Notes: generated by a model not told the origin, from the letters alone. A stretch of 64,000 bases of DNA from Actinomycetota bacterium (GCA_018268675.1 JAFDWB010000005.1:62001-126000); one strand, 5' to 3'. Positions 1,866 through 7,973 are shown, counted from the first letter of the stretch. A program made the numbers and translations.

Positions 1866-4510
1866 GAGGGTCCCACCTCGAAGGAGTCCGCGGACGCCGG
1901 CCGTCCGGCGCCGCCGCAGTCCTCACCGCGCCGCCGGGGGCGCGCCGCCGAGCGGCGGGCGGCTCCTCGACGGCGCGAGCCGAGCTCACCGACGATCCGT
2001 GAGTCGAGCGTCGCCCGCTCGGCGAGGACCTCGGCGGAGCGCCGGCGCCGACCCGAGCACCGGATCGCCCCCTCGAGGCGCTCGAGGCCACCGGCGGGTG
2101 GGGCCCCGAGCGCGTCCCCCACCCTGACACCCCGCAGCGCGAACGGACGCGAGACCTCACCGCGGTCGGTGACCTGGGCGATGAACCGGTAGCGCGGCAG
2201 GCGCGTGATCGCCTCCGGGCTCGGTTCGCCGGCCCACTCTTTCGTCACCAGCCCGGCCGCCCGGGCGTTCAACGCCGAGACCATCATGTGGGAGCGGTTG
2301 GTGGTCAGCGAGTTGAGCGTCGCCGGGCGCAGCCGCTCGGGGTTCTGGTTCATCACGATCGCCCGCAGCCCGAACTTCGCCCCCTGCTCCTCGATCGCCG
2401 CGAGGGTGTCGGAGTCGTAGGTCTGCGCCTCGTCGAGGCCGAGCCAGAAGAGGCGTCGGTCGCGCGGGTCGAGGTCGCCCCTCGAGCGCGCGCTGTAGAA
2501 GACGTCGAAGGCGGCGAGGTTCGCGATCAGGCGCTCGCGGGTCCCACCGCCGCCGGGGCAGAAGAGGACGATGAGGCCCGCGTCCATCGCCTCGCGCAGG
2601 CTCAGGGTGCTGCGGCTCGCCCCGAGGAGCGCGGCCGTCCTCCTCGAGGCCCCGAGCCGGTCGACCAGGTTGGTCAACGGCGTCACCGCCTCGTCGGAGA
2701 GGCGTGGGAAGCGCTCGCGCCAGAAGCTCTGCGAGCCCTCCGGCAGGAACGGCAGGATCGCCTCGCGCCAGGAGGTGTCGGTCAGGAGCGTCGGGATCTG
2801 GAAGACGGTCGGCGCGAGCTCGGGCGGCAGCTCCTTTGAGATGGCCGCGAGGGCGGAGGCCGTCTGCGTGATCAGGTTGATCGCCCGGGTCGAGCGCTCG
2901 CCCCAGCCCATCGCGGTGGCGAAGGCGTCGACGACCGCCTCGACCCGGTCCTCCGCGTCGACGCCGCGCAGCTCGAAGAGGTTCCAACACGGCTGGTCGT
3001 CCCCGCCGCCGGGGCCCAGGTCGACGACGACGACACGCTCGGCGACGCCGTCCTCGCCGAGGTAGGCCTTGATCTCCTCGAGGGCGTCGCCGTGCGGGTC
3101 GAGGAAGAGACCCCCGTGCCCCGAGCGCGCGAGGTGGACGAACATGGTGGTCGCCGATGCCGTCTTCCCCCAGCGCGAGCGGCCGGCGAGGTAGGTGAAG
3201 AAGGTGTCGGCGGCGCGGACGCCGACGATCCGCTCGCCCTGCTCGCCGGAGACCCGGCCGATCGGGATCAGGTCGCCTCGTCCGGGATCGAACTCCGGCA
3301 GGTCCGGCGGCGGCGCCAGCAGGGCGCCGGAGCGGAGGACGTTGTCGGAGGCGCAGTTGACGGTCGGCGGCTTCAGGAACCCGGCGACCTCGGCCGTGGT
3401 GACCACGTTCCGACGGGCGGGCCGGAAGAGTCCCGTCCGGAGCCGGCGCTCGAAGGAGCGTCGGCGGCCGGGAAGGTCGGAGCCGAGGAAGGCGAGCCCC
3501 GCCAGGTGGAGGCCCGAGGCCCGTAGCCAGTTGCGATCGGAGAACGGCCCGAAGGCGGCGAGCAGGCCGCGCATGATCCCTTCCGCGCGGGATCGGTCCG
3601 GGGCCCGGGCGGCGAGCAGGACCTGCGCCTCGAACAGGGTCGCGCCACCACGCAGCTTGACCTCGAGGCCACGCCCGAGGTCGCGGCGCTCGGCCATCTC
3701 CCCGGGGTCGAGGCGACCCCGACGTTCGCCGCCGATGCCGCTGCTCGGAAGTTCGACCGCCTCGGTGCGGCGGAGGGCCTGGCGCCGCATCCACCAGCGA
3801 CGCCAGAGCACCCGGAACCCGCCGATCGGAAGAAGGTCGATGCAGACGTCGGCGCGCTCCCCCCGGCCCCGGTCGAGGCCGGCGAGCGCCGCGGCGAAAG
3901 GCGAGAGCGGATCCGGGTCGAGTGGCAGCCGGGCGAGGGGCTCAACATAAGGGCGTGCCAGGACCAGCTCGGTCCGCAGGGTGGTCTGCCTGTCCACCGG
4001 CGCCGCCGCGGCGCCGCCGAGCACGTCGGCGGGATCGCGTAGCTCCACGCCCCGAAAGGACCGGAGCGCGCCGCGGAGCAGGGACAGGTCGCGCTCGGCG
4101 ACGTCGAGCAGGTAGACGAGCCGACCGTCGTCGTCGTTGGTCAGGCGGACCCGCAGCGCCGACGCGCGCCGGTCCCACCAGCCGCCGATGCGCCTGCCGG
4201 AGCGGGCGAGCTGGGCGGCGAACGAGCCGACCAGCTCGGGCGCTGCATCGAATTCGTCCGCCGGCACCACGACGAACGCTCGCCGCGAGGCGAGCGTGCG
4301 GCGGGTGGCGACGTGGCGCTGCCTCGCCAGCGCGGTGGCGATCACGGTCGCGCCGAGTGCGATCGGGAGCGCCGCCGGGCCGGCGACGAGGTGCGATAGC
4401 CGGCCAGGGCCGAGACGGTCGACGAGCCGCAGCAGCGCATAGCCGGCAGCGCAGGCGAGGAGCGCGAGCAGCGGCCTCGGATCGTCCGGGCCTCGACGGC
4501 GACCGGTCAC
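1862..4510 (-). CDS. TraG/VirD4-like conjugative coupling ATPase
   Basis: An 882-residue membrane-anchored ATPase of the HerA/FtsK superfamily, resembling type IV coupling proteins that deliver DNA to the conjugation channel. Two hydrophobic segments lie near residues 14-27 and 40-62. Walker A is GRSRWGKT near residue 440, followed by GLFLDPHGDA (Walker B-like). FWLGLDEAQT near residue 685 resembles the second acidic motif of the TraM-recognition region. About 370 residues of unassigned sequence separate the membrane part from the ATPase core. The far C-terminus is Arg/Ala-rich and weakly conserved in appearance. The ATG at 4510 overlaps the upstream small gene's stop by 4 bp. VirB4 and TcpC homologues in the same operon support a transfer role rather than chromosome partition. 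Confidence 0.85.
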   Translation of the reverse strand: MTGRRRGPDDPRPLLALLACAAGYALLRLVDRLGPGRLSHLVAGPAALPIALGATVIATALARQRHVATRRTLASRRAFVVVPADEFDAAPELVGSFAAQLARSGRRIGGWWDRRASALRVRLTNDDDGRLVYLLDVAERDLSLLRGALRSFRGVELRDPADVLGGAAAAPVDRQTTLRTELVLARPYVEPLARLPLDPDPLSPFAAALAGLDRGRGERADVCIDLLPIGGFRVLWRRWWMRRQALRRTEAVELPSSGIGGERRGRLDPGEMAERRDLGRGLEVKLRGGATLFEAQVLLAARAPDRSRAEGIMRGLLAAFGPFSDRNWLRASGLHLAGLAFLGSDLPGRRRSFERRLRTGLFRPARRNVVTTAEVAGFLKPPTVNCASDNVLRSGALLAPPPDLPEFDPGRGDLIPIGRVSGEQGERIVGVRAADTFFTYLAGRSRWGKTASATTMFVHLARSGHGGLFLDPHGDALEEIKAYLGEDGVAERVVVVDLGPGGGDDQPCWNLFELRGVDAEDRVEAVVDAFATAMGWGERSTRAINLITQTASALAAISKELPPELAPTVFQIPTLLTDTSWREAILPFLPEGSQSFWRERFPRLSDEAVTPLTNLVDRLGASRRTAALLGASRSTLSLREAMDAGLIVLFCPGGGGTRERLIANLAAFDVFYSARSRGDLDPRDRRLFWLGLDEAQTYDSDTLAAIEEQGAKFGLRAIVMNQNPERLRPATLNSLTTNRSHMMVSALNARAAGLVTKEWAGEPSPEAITRLPRYRFIAQVTDRGEVSRPFALRGVRVGDALGAPPAGGLERLEGAIRCSGRRRRSAEVLAERATLDSRIVGELGSRRRGAARRSAARPRRRGEDCGGAGRPASADSFEVGPS

Positions 4511-4674
4511 GATTGCACCTCGGGGTGACGGGGGGATCTCAGCTTTCGGCGGACGCCGGATCGCGCGTCACGCCGGGGAAAACCCGACATCGGCCGCTCC
4601 TCGAGGCGGACCCCCTGGTGGACCCCCTGCCGGACCCCCCGGTGGACCCCCTGCCGGACCTCGGTCGCCGTCAT
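4507..4674 (-). CDS. Small repeat-containing protein of unknown function
   Basis: A 55-codon gene defined mainly by its junctions: its ATG (4674) overlaps the preceding stop by 4 bp and its stop overlaps the coupling-protein ATG by 4 bp. The product is Arg-rich with a short internal repeat (GVHRGVRQGVHQGV), encoded by the tandem DNA repeat at 4617-4664. Its frame continues from the frame-B remnant of the methyltransferase tail described under 4671-5438, so it may be a leftover that became a separate coding unit. No domain is recognised and it may serve only for translational coupling. Confidence 0.4.
   Translation of the reverse strand: MTATEVRQGVHRGVRQGVHQGVRLEERPMSGFPRRDARSGVRRKLRSPRHPEVQS
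4617..4664. repeat. Two tandem 24-bp units
   Basis: Two adjacent copies of a unit beginning GGTGGACCCCCTGCCGGACC, differing only in the last few bases, with a partial third unit just before 4617. The repeat is a multiple of three and encodes the GVHRGVRQ-type repeat of the small gene at 4507-4674, so copy-number change would keep the frame. Confidence 0.85.
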
Positions 4675-5438
4675 CGACGCCGCCTCCTCTTCGAGGATCC
4701 GCGCTCTGATCCGCCACGGGATCTTCCGCGCGAGGGCGTCGCCGAGGCCGGCAGGGCGGTCCACCCGATCGGGAACCCCATCAGCCACTCGACCCAGGTG
4801 GGGTTCAGCCTCCCCGGGACCTTCTTCCCGCCGGCCTCCTTCAGCCCGGCGTGGACCGCTCCCGAGAGCGTTTCCCGGGCCCGCCGGCTGTCCGGGCGGG
4901 GCGGCGTCGAGTAGCCCTTGTGCGCGTCCGACACCGTCGGCGTCGGGAAGAGCGTCACGTAGTCGGTCAGCGTGTTCCCGGAGTGGACCTTCCGGCTCCC
5001 CGGCCGGCGGCGGGCGGTGGAGTTCCGCGACGCCCGGGAGTCGGCCTGGGTCGGGGTCGGTATCCGCCCCCCTTCGGCTCGGCGCGCCGCCCGCGCCTCG
5101 GCGGGACTCGTTCCCCTGCGGCGCGCGGACGTGACCTGTGGGGACTCGCCCTCCGCCGCGAGGACGTCGGCGGTGGGCCCCGATCCGCCCGAGCCGTCCG
5201 TGGCAGGGTGTCCCGAGCCCTCGAGTGGGTAGGCGCGCCCGTCCTGTATCAACCCGTGCTTCGGCCAATTTTTCGAGAACTCGGCCCCCAGGCCGTCCGG
5301 GCCGGTCACGCCGCTCCGTGGCGCGGACGGTCCCGTTCTCCATGAGGCGCGGGAGGCGTCGTGGCTCGCGAAGGCCCCGGTCGCCGTCGGAGCGAAGACC
5401 CGGGCCCGACCGGGTCGCGTGCGGGTCGGCCGCTTCAT
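4671..5438 (-). CDS. Dcm-derived WVEWLMGFP-motif protein
   Basis: A 255-residue protein with the motif series seen in phage and mobile-element proteins often labelled DNA methyltransferase: AEFSKNWPKHGL, IPTPTQADS, LFPTPTVSDAHKG and finally LNPTWVEWLMGFPIGWT. It has no SAM-binding or PCQ catalytic motif, so it is unlikely to methylate alone. Start 5438 overlaps the stop of the cytosine methyltransferase by 4 bp, and its stop overlaps the next small gene by 4 bp; third-position GC supports this frame. Frame B of the same DNA still shows a decayed Dcm pattern (VLEKLAEARVDTGRA, later PAGLGDALARKIPWRI), so the gene appears to descend from a duplicated Dcm C-terminal half now read in another frame. 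Its role is unknown; it may be a target-recognition partner. Confidence 0.6.
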   Translation of the reverse strand: MKRPTRTRPGRARVFAPTATGAFASHDASRASWRTGPSAPRSGVTGPDGLGAEFSKNWPKHGLIQDGRAYPLEGSGHPATDGSGGSGPTADVLAAEGESPQVTSARRRGTSPAEARAARRAEGGRIPTPTQADSRASRNSTARRRPGSRKVHSGNTLTDYVTLFPTPTVSDAHKGYSTPPRPDSRRARETLSGAVHAGLKEAGGKKVPGRLNPTWVEWLMGFPIGWTALPASATPSRGRSRGGSERGSSKRRRRR

Positions 5439-6466
5439 CGACGGCTCCCCGGCTTCGGGCGCGCCGAGCGATGCCGGAAACGAGGAGACGCCCCCTTGCA
5501 GACGGCGTCGCGAGAGGCGTCGAGATACGCGGCGCTCATCGCGGCCGCCTCGTATTCGAGGATCCGGATCCCGATCCACTCGGGGATCTGCGGGATGAGG
5601 GCGTTGCCGAGGGCGGCAAGCCGGTCCACCCGATTGGGAACCCCATCAGCCACTCGACCCACTCGGGGCTCAACCGCCCACGGATCCGTCCCTCCGCCGG
5701 CTCGACATCCGGGCGAGCGGCGGCGGCGTCCTCGCCCGGGCGACCGCGACGGTTCGGTCGGGCCGCCGTTTGATCCCGGGCATCCCCGGCGCCGTACGTC
5801 GGCCAGGTCGTGGCGATGTGCTCGAGTGTTTTCTGGACGATCCGCCCTGTCTTCTTGTCGTAGAAGCGCTGGTTCGGGTGCGACGGAGGCCTGCCGTCCT
5901 TGTCGACGACCTCGATGTACCTCCAGCTGTCCGGTTCGCTGGCGCTCGGCGTCGGGAATGTGAAGGGCCGGGTAGGCGACGATCCACACGCGGCGGCGCA
6001 GGTGGGGCGCCCCGAACTCGCGAGCGGAAAGGCTCGCCCACTCCGCGTCATACCCTGCCTCGGCCAAGTCCCCGAGAACTCGACCGATCGGTGCCCGGTC
6101 CCACCGTTTCCCCTTCCCGGTGAGCAGGGCGGGCACGTTCTCCACGAGCACGTACCGGGGACGTAGTTCGCGAACGATCCGGGCGAACTCGGTCCAAAGA
6201 CCCGAGCGTGCCCCGTCGATCCCGGCTCCTTTCCCCGCGCCTGAGAGGTCCTGGCAGGGGAAGCCTCCGCAGACGACATCGACCGCGGCGAGGTTCGCCG
6301 CCCCGACCTCGCGCACGTCCTCGAACGTGCTCGCCTTCGGGAAACGCCGCTCGAGGACGGCCCTGCAATACGGGTCGAGCTCGACCTGCCACTCGATCTC
6401 GAACCCCGCCCTTTCGAGCCCGAGGTCGAAGCCGCCGATTCCCGCGAAGAGACTGCCGACATTCAC
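5435..6466 (-). CDS. DNA (cytosine-5) methyltransferase, Dcm-like, mixed-frame middle
   Basis: A 343-codon open frame with cytosine-C5 methyltransferase motifs: FAGIGGFDLGL (SAM, residue 7), GGFPCQDLS (catalytic Cys 71), VLVENV (residue 106), GAPHLRRRVWIVAYP (motif VIII) and ALGNALIPQIPEWIG (motif X). Between about residues 170 and 290 this frame loses its GC-rich third positions and reads as unstructured Arg-rich sequence, while the frame shifted +1 carries the conserved-looking recognition region. So either two compensating indels have scrambled this copy, recoding joins the frames, or the two frames encode two products. ATG 6466 overlaps the PP-loop gene's stop by 4 bp, and its stop overlaps the next gene by 4 bp. 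Expected role: modify CpG-type or other short sites on the element. Confidence 0.75.
   Translation of the reverse strand: MNVGSLFAGIGGFDLGLERAGFEIEWQVELDPYCRAVLERRFPKASTFEDVREVGAANLAAVDVVCGGFPCQDLSGAGKGAGIDGARSGLWTEFARIVRELRPRYVLVENVPALLTGKGKRWDRAPIGRVLGDLAEAGYDAEWASLSAREFGAPHLRRRVWIVAYPALHIPDAERQRTGQLEVHRGRRQGRQASVAPEPALLRQEDRADRPENTRAHRHDLADVRRRGCPGSNGGPTEPSRSPGRGRRRRSPGCRAGGGTDPWAVEPRVGRVADGVPNRVDRLAALGNALIPQIPEWIGIRILEYEAAAMSAAYLDASRDAVCKGASPRFRHRSARPKPGSRR
5536..6085 (-). other. Second conserved reading frame overlapping the Dcm gene
   Basis: In the frame shifted +1 from the Dcm gene the DNA reads FSGTWPRQGMTRSGRAFPL, FPTPSASEPDSWRYIEVVD, a Lys/Asp/Tyr-rich stretch atypical of shadow frames, ATTWPTYGAGDA and LSPEWVEWLMGFPIGWT. 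It then ends at a TGA (5536-5538) overlapping an in-frame ATG of the Dcm frame. Third positions are almost all G/C here between about 5980 and 5660 while the Dcm frame has many A/T, so this frame has been under coding selection. It mirrors the gene at 4671-5438, which also ends in a TGA overlapping an ATG. How it would be started is unclear; no good ribosome site is visible inside the Dcm gene. Confidence 0.6.
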
Positions 6467-7509
6467 CTTCTCCTCCTGGATCCGGGATCTCGCCGCGCGG
6501 CCCGGGCAGCGGATCGGCCCGGGCCGCCGGCCTTCCTTCCTCGTGGGCGGGGTCCGCCCACGAGGTCGCTGCCGTTAAGTCGCGGCTGCCCGACGGCGTC
6601 GACCTCCTTCGCGGTCGACGGCTCCTCCATGCAGGAGCAGGCACCCCACTCGGATCCGTCGAAATCGCCGGGTCGACGTTCGAGTCGCCGGCGGAACAGC
6701 CGCATCGTCAAGGGACGGGTCCGGCCGCCACGTCGGTCCCGCATGATCGAGACGTCGCGGTCGAGACGCGCGCGGATCTCTTCCTCGCGCTCCTCGTGCC
6801 AGCGGTAGCGCTCGGGGTGGCGACGGAGGAGCAGCGCAAAGGAGGCCTGCCCCGCCTTGCAGCAGAAGCCGCCGCAGTTGTTGTGGGCGAAGCCCTCCGC
6901 GTAGAGGCGGGGCGGTCGGATGCCGAGCCCCTCGAGTTCGAAGAGCAACTCCTCCTTGGAGCGCCGCGGCTTCTCAGTGAGCGGGGCCTCGATCCGCCAC
7001 GGCGCCCAGAAGCCCTCGGCGCGCTCGAGCCGGTGGACCTCCGACCAGTCGAAGCCGAGGACGCAGATCGTGTCCAGGGGATCGCGGTCCCGCTCGAGCC
7101 AGCGGCGCATCAGCCGCCGCTTCAGGATCGCCGAGCATGGGTCGACCAGCGAGTTGCCGAGGAACCGGACATCCCCGTAGACCCGATGGGGGTCGCGACC
7201 CTCGGCGATCCATTCGAGCGGTCCCAGGGCCGCGCTCGCGGCGGCGCCGAGGTCGAGCAGGTGGCGCCGCCGCCGACCCATCTCCGTCAGCGGCGGGATC
7301 GAGGCCGCCCGGGCCAGGAGCCCGGGCGGGCAGTCCCGGCCCGCGAGTCGTGCCGAGGTCTCCAGCAGGAAGCGGTAGAGATCGTCGTCCTCGATCAGCG
7401 TGTCGGCGAACAGGAGGGTCACCTGCCCGATGCCGTGCATGCCGACCGAACGCCTCGCCGCCCCCCACGACCCGACGCCGCCGGAGAACATCACGACGCG
7501 TCCCGGCAT
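6463..7509 (-). CDS. PP-loop (PAPS reductase-like) protein of the mobile element
   Basis: A 348-residue protein beginning with a P-loop-like pyrophosphatase motif VVMFSGGVGSWGAA, the signature of PAPS reductase/ATP sulfurylase-type PP-loop enzymes that adenylate or sulfurate a substrate. A Cys-rich patch (HNNCGGFCCKAGQASF, near residue 222) and a late CSCMEE could bind a metal or FeS cluster. The start at 7509 shares one base with the upstream stop (TGATG); longer upstream extensions read as low-complexity Arg-rich sequence and are rejected. Such proteins are frequent in phages and conjugative elements, where their substrate is mostly unknown. With a second PP-loop gene upstream and methyltransferases downstream, a nucleic-acid modification role is plausible but inferred. 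Confidence 0.68.
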   Translation of the reverse strand: MPGRVVMFSGGVGSWGAARRSVGMHGIGQVTLLFADTLIEDDDLYRFLLETSARLAGRDCPPGLLARAASIPPLTEMGRRRRHLLDLGAAASAALGPLEWIAEGRDPHRVYGDVRFLGNSLVDPCSAILKRRLMRRWLERDRDPLDTICVLGFDWSEVHRLERAEGFWAPWRIEAPLTEKPRRSKEELLFELEGLGIRPPRLYAEGFAHNNCGGFCCKAGQASFALLLRRHPERYRWHEEREEEIRARLDRDVSIMRDRRGGRTRPLTMRLFRRRLERRPGDFDGSEWGACSCMEEPSTAKEVDAVGQPRLNGSDLVGGPRPRGRKAGGPGRSAARAARRDPGSRRRR

Positions 7510-7973
7510 CACGCCGCCCTCCCCCAGCAGCGGCGCTCGCAGAGACGGTGACGGTCGCGGCGCGGTCGCGACGGCACGTCCCACGACTTGCGCGGGACCC
7601 GCCCGATGGCCTCGAAACCGGCGGCCCGGACGCTCGAACCCGGCTCGGTGGCCAGCGTGTAGGTGATCACCCGCCGAAAGCCGAGCGCCTGCACCTCGAC
7701 GCCCGGGATCGCGGTGCCGGTGTCGATGTAGAGGAGTTCGTCGTAGTGCTCGCGACAGCGGTGCGCGAGCACGCCGGAGTCGGTGCCGCCGGAGAGGAGG
7801 CAGACCGTCCGAAGCGGCGACCACCACTCCTTCGCCGCGGCGATCAAGGCGTCGGGATCGCCGTCGTCGCCGCGCGACGGTCGGACGCCGGGCCCGGCCG
7901 CCACCCCGCACACCTCCGTGGGAAGGACCGGCCCTGATCTCGGGCCCGCCCCCGTCGGGATCCGCCGACTCAT
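7509..7973 (-). CDS. Short PAPS reductase-like PP-loop protein
   Basis: A 154-residue protein with the PP-loop motif VCLLSGGTDSGVLAH near residue 57 and the following YIDTGTAIPGVE strand typical of PAPS-reductase-like enzymes. It is much shorter than full PAPS reductases (about 230-260 residues) and lacks their C-terminal Cys motif, so it is not expected to reduce PAPS. The C-terminal RRDRHRLCERRCWG has two Cys. The ATG at 7973 overlaps the upstream stop by 4 bp and its own stop shares a base with the next PP-loop gene, so the two are likely co-translated and could form one complex, one giving the nucleotide fold and the other the metal site. Substrate unknown. Confidence 0.65.
   Translation of the reverse strand: MSRRIPTGAGPRSGPVLPTEVCGVAAGPGVRPSRGDDGDPDALIAAAKEWWSPLRTVCLLSGGTDSGVLAHRCREHYDELLYIDTGTAIPGVEVQALGFRRVITYTLATEPGSSVRAAGFEAIGRVPRKSWDVPSRPRRDRHRLCERRCWGRAA

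Follow-up and report, generated by a model that had tools for sequence, protein, structure and literature searches.

A probable two-polypeptide DNA cytosine-5 methyltransferase whose motif IX subunit is nested in the +1 frame of a phage-type Dcm gene

Why should a gene for a Dcm-type cytosine methyltransferase be readable as a conserved protein in two frames? The question is raised by a 64,000-nucleotide stretch of DNA from an Actinomycetota bacterium (GCA_018268675.1 JAFDWB010000005.1:62001-126000; hereafter the window), in which the Dcm frame of 5435-6466 (alpha, frame A) reads VLGDLAEAGYDAEW and GVPNRVDRLAALGNAL, while the +1 frame over the same bases (beta, frame B) reads FSGTWPRQGMTRSGRAFPL and WVEWLMGFPIGWT. 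The initial annotation, whose coordinates and two-frame reading were correct, took the +1 frame for a different phage protein family that arose by overprinting the C-terminus of a Dcm. Searched separately, the frames do lead to different families, alpha to PF00145 and phrog_363 and beta to phrog_1008, and neither the nested beta (beta2) nor a second copy next to it (beta1) matched any Pfam or NCBIfam model. The evidence points to a closer relationship between the two proteins: the locus is probably that of a two-polypeptide, M.EcoHK31I-type DNA cytosine-5 methyltransferase, in which beta would be a nested specificity and motif IX subunit that joins alpha in a complex to methylate DNA. The features of the nested copy are as follows.

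5435-6466, minus strand: alpha, Dcm-type chain, 343 aa (PF00145 over residues 1-166, 7.9e-46; phrog_363 over residues 1-309, 1.1e-73)
5536-6279, minus strand: beta2, nested in the +1 frame, 247 aa (phrog_1008, 1.3e-16; same nested frame in more than 170 loci)
6025-6078, minus strand: dual-coded stretch, FSGTWPRQGMTRSGRAFPL in the beta frame over VLGDLAEAGYDAEW in the alpha frame, between motifs VI and VIII
5683-5952, minus strand: variable region, probable target-recognition region (TRD), constrained in the beta frame and disordered in alpha (pLDDT <50)
5623-5673, minus strand: motif IX in the beta frame (LSPEWVEWLMGFPIGWT), from hhalign to canonical motif IX and from substitution positions
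5591-5632, minus strand: motif X in the alpha frame (RLAALGNALIPQ), with 72% of substitutions at alpha position 3 and high AF2 confidence

Alpha is a C5 cytosine methyltransferase by its motifs I-VIII, which lie within the PF00145 match (SAM binding, PC, ENV, RxR), and it also carries motif X. It has no TRD and no motif IX on the same chain; residues ~179-286, where these would be expected, are a disordered shadow of beta, constrained mainly in the beta frame. In the AF2 model of alpha, 10-residue blocks have pLDDT values of 81-98 over residues 1-170 and 91-96 over residues 291-320, motif X is a confident helix, and pLDDT is below 50 over most of residues 179-286. The folded part is the catalytic domain of M.HhaI/M.HaeIII, superimposing over 167 columns at 1.8-2.0 A (M.HhaI 1.8 A). 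By profile comparison, beta's WVEWLMGFPIGWT can be aligned to the methyltransferase's own canonical motif IX, with GQLNPxWVEWLMGFPIGWTD of beta and RRLTPxECERLQGFPDGWTD of beta-less Dcms sharing 45% identity over 20 columns (hhalign, E 8.1e-5). A canonical motif IX stands in frame A in 7 of 202 nonredundant Dcms, each of which has 3-11 stops in frame B, and in none of the 202 does it occur together with beta. Beta itself was modeled with little confidence (mean pLDDT 63); the model puts a helix at motif IX and had no fold match in the PDB, and assignment of the TRD to beta rests on position, variability and frame. Alpha thus holds motifs I-VIII and X and beta holds the variable region and motif IX, and with a motif IX that aligns to the methyltransferase's own, beta would seem to be the half that alpha lacks.

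Nesting of beta is a family-wide arrangement and not an oddity of this locus. In Microcystis phage Mwe-JY08 the same bases gave matches to both proteins, and the nested frame was seen on translation of phage loci L001, L002, L003, L005, L006, L009 and L011. When alpha and beta HMMs were applied after beta queries, beta lay inside alpha at +1 in 176 of 177 loci, 160 of them drawn from IMG/VR with two beta queries, a few being phage loci fetched with alpha, and 6 being the window plus overlapping stretches fetched from its genome. Scanning bacterial genomes with beta1 gave 80 loci, 79 of them nested at +1, whose record titles name Actinomycetota, Bacillota, Bacteroidota, Planctomycetota, Synergistaceae, Elusimicrobia, Treponema, proteobacteria and others. 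As an answer to the ascertainment bias of the first 160 loci, which had been taken with beta peptides, Dcms were fetched again with only the alpha N-terminus, a region outside the overlap, and beta was present at +1 in 79 of the 93 nonredundant Dcms obtained. Nested beta also occurs in Salmonella phage S9-5, in Acinetobacter phage ABMM1 and on the archaeal plasmid pMETHO01 of Methanomethylovorans hollandica, where the nested frame of the Dcm ends in LNPVWTEWLMGLPTNWTALK, and it is open in genes down to 39% GC (the gene of Paenibacillus phage Shelly has 47% GC). A multi-phage alignment of beta contained no stretch conserved enough for a scan of the collection. The two families share DNA everywhere they were sampled, well outside this locus, and with hundreds of contigs showing this arrangement, we rejected the idea that sequencing frameshifts in a single Dcm created it.

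The positions at which the genes vary indicate which frame is under selection. We compared 13 pairs of genes that are at least 86% identical; alpha position 1 is here beta position 3. Their substitutions divide among alpha positions 1/2/3 as 22/8/69% (N-terminus), 37/18/45% (motifs VI-VIII), 70/17/12% (variable region), 76/9/15% (motif IX) and 20/8/72% (motif X onward). All 52 pairs taken together agree in every region except the variable one, where distant pairs align poorly. Constraint is therefore relayed along the gene, from the alpha frame in the N-terminal motifs to both frames over motifs VI-VIII, to beta over the variable region and motif IX, and back to alpha at motif X. Over the variable region and motif IX it is frame B that is constrained, and the Dcm frame is passive. 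The base composition of the window repeats the same relay. Alpha GC3 over five regions from the N-terminus to motif X is 0.85, 0.81, 0.59, 0.60 and 0.93, the drop to 0.59 and 0.60 being in the variable region and in motif IX, whose alpha GC1 is 0.84 and 0.90; high GC3 passes from the alpha frame to the beta frame and returns to alpha at motif X. In their own frames, beta2 has a GC3 of 0.80 and beta1 of 0.88. Third-position GC, one of the checks that the initial annotation had proposed, thus switches frame twice in the nested copy.

Both frames are kept open beyond chance. In 79 genes in which beta had been detected, a choice that biases toward open B frames and to which the substitution test is less exposed, synonymous shuffling of alpha with its own codons predicts 272 stops in frame B, and 11 are found; the alpha N-terminus, as a control for the same shuffle, has 175 against 194 expected. 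Alpha-preserving shuffles give 0 B-frame stops against 133 expected over alpha columns 106-160 and 11 against 126.5 over columns 161-244, and beta-preserving shuffles give 0 A-frame stops against 124 over columns 106-160 and 0 against 269.5 over the variable region and motif IX. The third frame of the same stretch has 615 stops in 12,769 codons. Third bases behave similarly: where the amino acid is the same, their identity among the 79 beta-carrying Dcms rises from 0.37-0.42 in the N-terminus to 0.52-0.60 over columns 96-145, and is 0.84 over columns 230-239 (motif IX) and 0.41 from column 247, while the 14 Dcms without a clear beta reach 0.46 over columns 230-239 and equal the others over columns 132-145. 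By both shuffles and substitutions, then, purifying selection acts on both frames and not on one only.

Beta would begin inside alpha, and it is likely made by internal initiation in the +1 frame. Of the loci, 16 have a beta frame that closes a short way upstream, and all 16 have a start codon with a Shine-Dalgarno-like stretch, against a chance expectation of 9.4; the start is often an ATG at alpha column 87 behind AAAGG, but not uniformly so. For beta2 we infer the start to be the ATG at 6279, the +1 frame being open further upstream (5536-6462). In the mechanism that we propose, alpha, the annotated Dcm, would bind SAM and carry out catalysis through motifs I-VIII and also contribute motif X, its disordered linker being merely the out-of-frame shadow of beta. 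Beta would supply the target-recognition region and motif IX, and the two chains would together form both lobes, catalytic and DNA-recognition, of a single enzyme, rather as in M.EcoHK31I. The gene upstream of alpha (6463-7911, minus strand) contains VVMFSGGVGSWGAARRSV, which we take to resemble PAPS-reductase/ATP-pyrophosphatase family phage proteins; as listed, this ORF had no Pfam match, and its start may be set too far upstream.

The window also contains a second copy of the pair, directly downstream of alpha.

4671-5438, minus strand: beta1, free-standing second beta, 255 aa (phrog_1008, 7.6e-20; own-frame GC3 as given above)
5435-5438, minus strand: ATGA overlap of the alpha stop and the beta1 start, from the sequence, with translational coupling probable
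4507-5343, minus strand: decayed Dcm-frame reading across this copy, without motifs I-V and with GNA changed to GDA

The initial annotation had recognized that this neighbor uses the second frame and retains a decayed Dcm reading in the first, and both observations hold: the Dcm-frame remnant scores about 32 bits with the alpha HMM, over positions 120-255, compared with 354 bits for the intact copy. Beta1 has its own ATG at 5438, with a Shine-Dalgarno-like GGGGAG just upstream (junction sequence GAAGCCGGGGAGCCGTCGATGAAG), and includes the domain that overlaps motifs VI-VIII. In its SATPS tail, a trace of alpha's motif X survives. We read this copy as the product of a duplication of the nested pair, after which beta was kept and alpha was lost, and not as a stage in the birth of beta. 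With the second copy reduced to beta and coupled to the alpha stop, the window would have one alpha and two possible betas. Apart from the window, the fetched loci contained no second beta N-terminus outside an alpha. Within the window's own genome beta is confined to this locus, and phrog_1008 was found in none of 20 relatives of that genome, as would be expected of a mobile or prophage element. Tentatively, the single alpha might pair with either beta2 or beta1, whose variable regions differ, to give two cytosine-methylation specificities, beta then acting as an exchangeable specificity subunit in the manner of the HsdS subunits of type I enzymes; across the family, phages might likewise diversify specificity in the beta frame while the alpha linker changes passively. 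We regard these two extensions together as possible but less likely than not.

Other explanations of the two frames have to be weighed against the two-chain reading. The constrained frames run A, B, A, just as one continuous enzyme would need if programmed frameshifting joined motifs I-VIII from the alpha frame to the variable region and motif IX from the beta frame and then to motif X from alpha, and the boundary between frames moves in some relatives (L003 and L007; L008 and L393). Such a protein would require two shifts each time it is made, and much of what is conserved would be of no use to it: the beta frame is constrained and free of stops over motifs VI-VIII, upstream of any useful shift point (0 vs 133), alpha is free of stops over the variable region (0 vs 269.5), where a chimera has no need of it, and beta1, free-standing and with an ATG and Shine-Dalgarno sequence of its own, includes the domain overlapping motifs VI-VIII. 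Given the constraint on beta over motifs VI-VIII and the open alpha frame across the variable region, we regard a single frameshifted chain as improbable. Beta could also be an independent protein, such as a regulator or inhibitor, that came to be nested in a Dcm by chance and resembles motif IX by coincidence. Its N-terminal domain, to which nothing known could be matched, the lack of a fold match and the one free-standing copy would fit this idea; the complementary content of the chains, with TRD and motif IX absent from alpha and motif IX present in beta, and the mutual exclusion of beta and a canonical alpha-frame motif IX among the 202 Dcms speak against it and make it, too, unlikely.

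That beta is a mere shadow, conserved only because a conserved Dcm is written in GC-rich DNA, has a negligible chance of being correct. Its N-terminal FSxTWPRxGMxRNG is indeed close to what VLGDLAxxGYDAEW yields in +1, and the same stretch still gives a score of 41 bits in L010, a Dcm that has no intact beta. A shadow predicts that substitutions peak at alpha position 3 along the whole overlap, and the test did not show this. It also leaves unexplained the avoidance of stops, the third-base constraint and the beta-type substitutions in the variable region and motif IX; moreover, beta is open in genes down to the lowest GC content given above and is found on an archaeal plasmid, and stops are common in the third frame. 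The origin proposed by the initial annotation, an unrelated phage family born by overprinting, fares better in part. The N-terminal region of beta does lie on Dcm motifs VI-VIII and its tail on motif X, SATPSSRRSP being exactly the +1 reading of alpha's ALGNALIPQ stretch as that annotation had noted, and these two parts we accept as overprinted on the Dcm. The core of beta, in contrast, aligns to canonical Dcm motif IX, complements the parts that alpha lacks and lies where frame B is constrained and the Dcm frame passive, and is better understood as the enzyme's own missing part; as an account of the whole protein, birth by overprinting is thus very unlikely. The two-polypeptide enzyme remains the reading that we prefer.

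Relatives of the locus vary in how the enzyme's parts are distributed between the frames. L003 and L007 have motif IX in the alpha frame again; in the latter (Mycobacterium phage Saroj, gp68) PTPxASD repeats change from the beta to the alpha frame within the variable region. Alpha ends shortly after motif VIII in L393 and in L008 (Mycobacterium phage GaugeLDP, gp82/gp81), where the TRD and motifs IX and X are in the beta frame. In L187 and L210 the Dcm ORF enters the beta frame near motif VI, an indel fusing the alpha N-terminus to beta, which may be a true variant or an assembly error. The alpha-frame segment before motif X, for example EPDIPRTATGIKNRVDRLK of L373, stands after the motif IX shadow in that locus, and less clearly so in L002 and L406, while in the window and most relatives the segment and the shadow are superimposed on the same bases. 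A tree of Dcms with and without beta (165 N-terminal columns), itself weakly resolved, has 47 label changes compared with 59 when labels are shuffled.

If the two-chain reading is correct, most phage-type Dcm genes in the alpha-only sample (79/93) would be two-subunit enzymes with a second gene hidden at +1, where gene annotation mostly misses it. The pair would be an unusually widespread case of same-strand nesting in which selection can be read frame by frame from the sequence. It would account for the low-complexity 'TRD' of these Dcms, it implies that recoding the annotated alpha gene may yield a dead enzyme, and it would correct the reading of phrog_1008 and phrog_363. These are the beta and alpha families, respectively; both are labeled DNA methyltransferase and are kept as two, and the entries returned for them hold nothing on nesting.

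Parts of this arrangement have precedents. In Paenibacillus phage Shelly, gp56 was deposited as 'g55 internal gene' inside the methyltransferase gp55, in a record that gives no function, conservation or motif assignment. The ShiLan domain likewise is a second protein in another frame within a phage methylase gene, a hidden HNH endonuclease with zinc fingers that forms an inserted homing element (PMC11855218); unlike that insertion, beta overlaps the methylase's own conserved catalytic motifs, and no HNH family is among its Pfam, NCBIfam or PHROG matches. Division of the enzyme is also familiar, since m5C enzymes cut between motif VIII and the TRD function by complementation (PMC5944983), and M.AquI is a naturally bisected m5C methyltransferase, split in the variable region (PMC3404938). 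The small chain of M.AquI carries motifs IX and X, whereas the window keeps motif X on alpha; the AquI-like split is present in relatives L393 and L008. Our search of the open-licence literature found no description of a nested two-subunit arrangement, and a plasmid search with one beta gave no enterobacterial match.

The closest parallel is M.EcoHK31I (YGGCCR), whose small-subunit gene overlaps the large-subunit gene in another frame. Its large subunit carries motifs I-VIII and X and its predicted TRD, with motif IX on the small subunit (PMC3404938). In motif layout as described there, alpha and beta resemble this enzyme in having a large chain with I-VIII and X but without IX and a second chain with IX, separate translation of the latter being likely here. 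They differ in that selection and disorder place the variable region on the small chain, while M.EcoHK31I has its predicted TRD in the large one, that nesting extends through the whole family in phages and prophages, and that the window has an extra free-standing small subunit.
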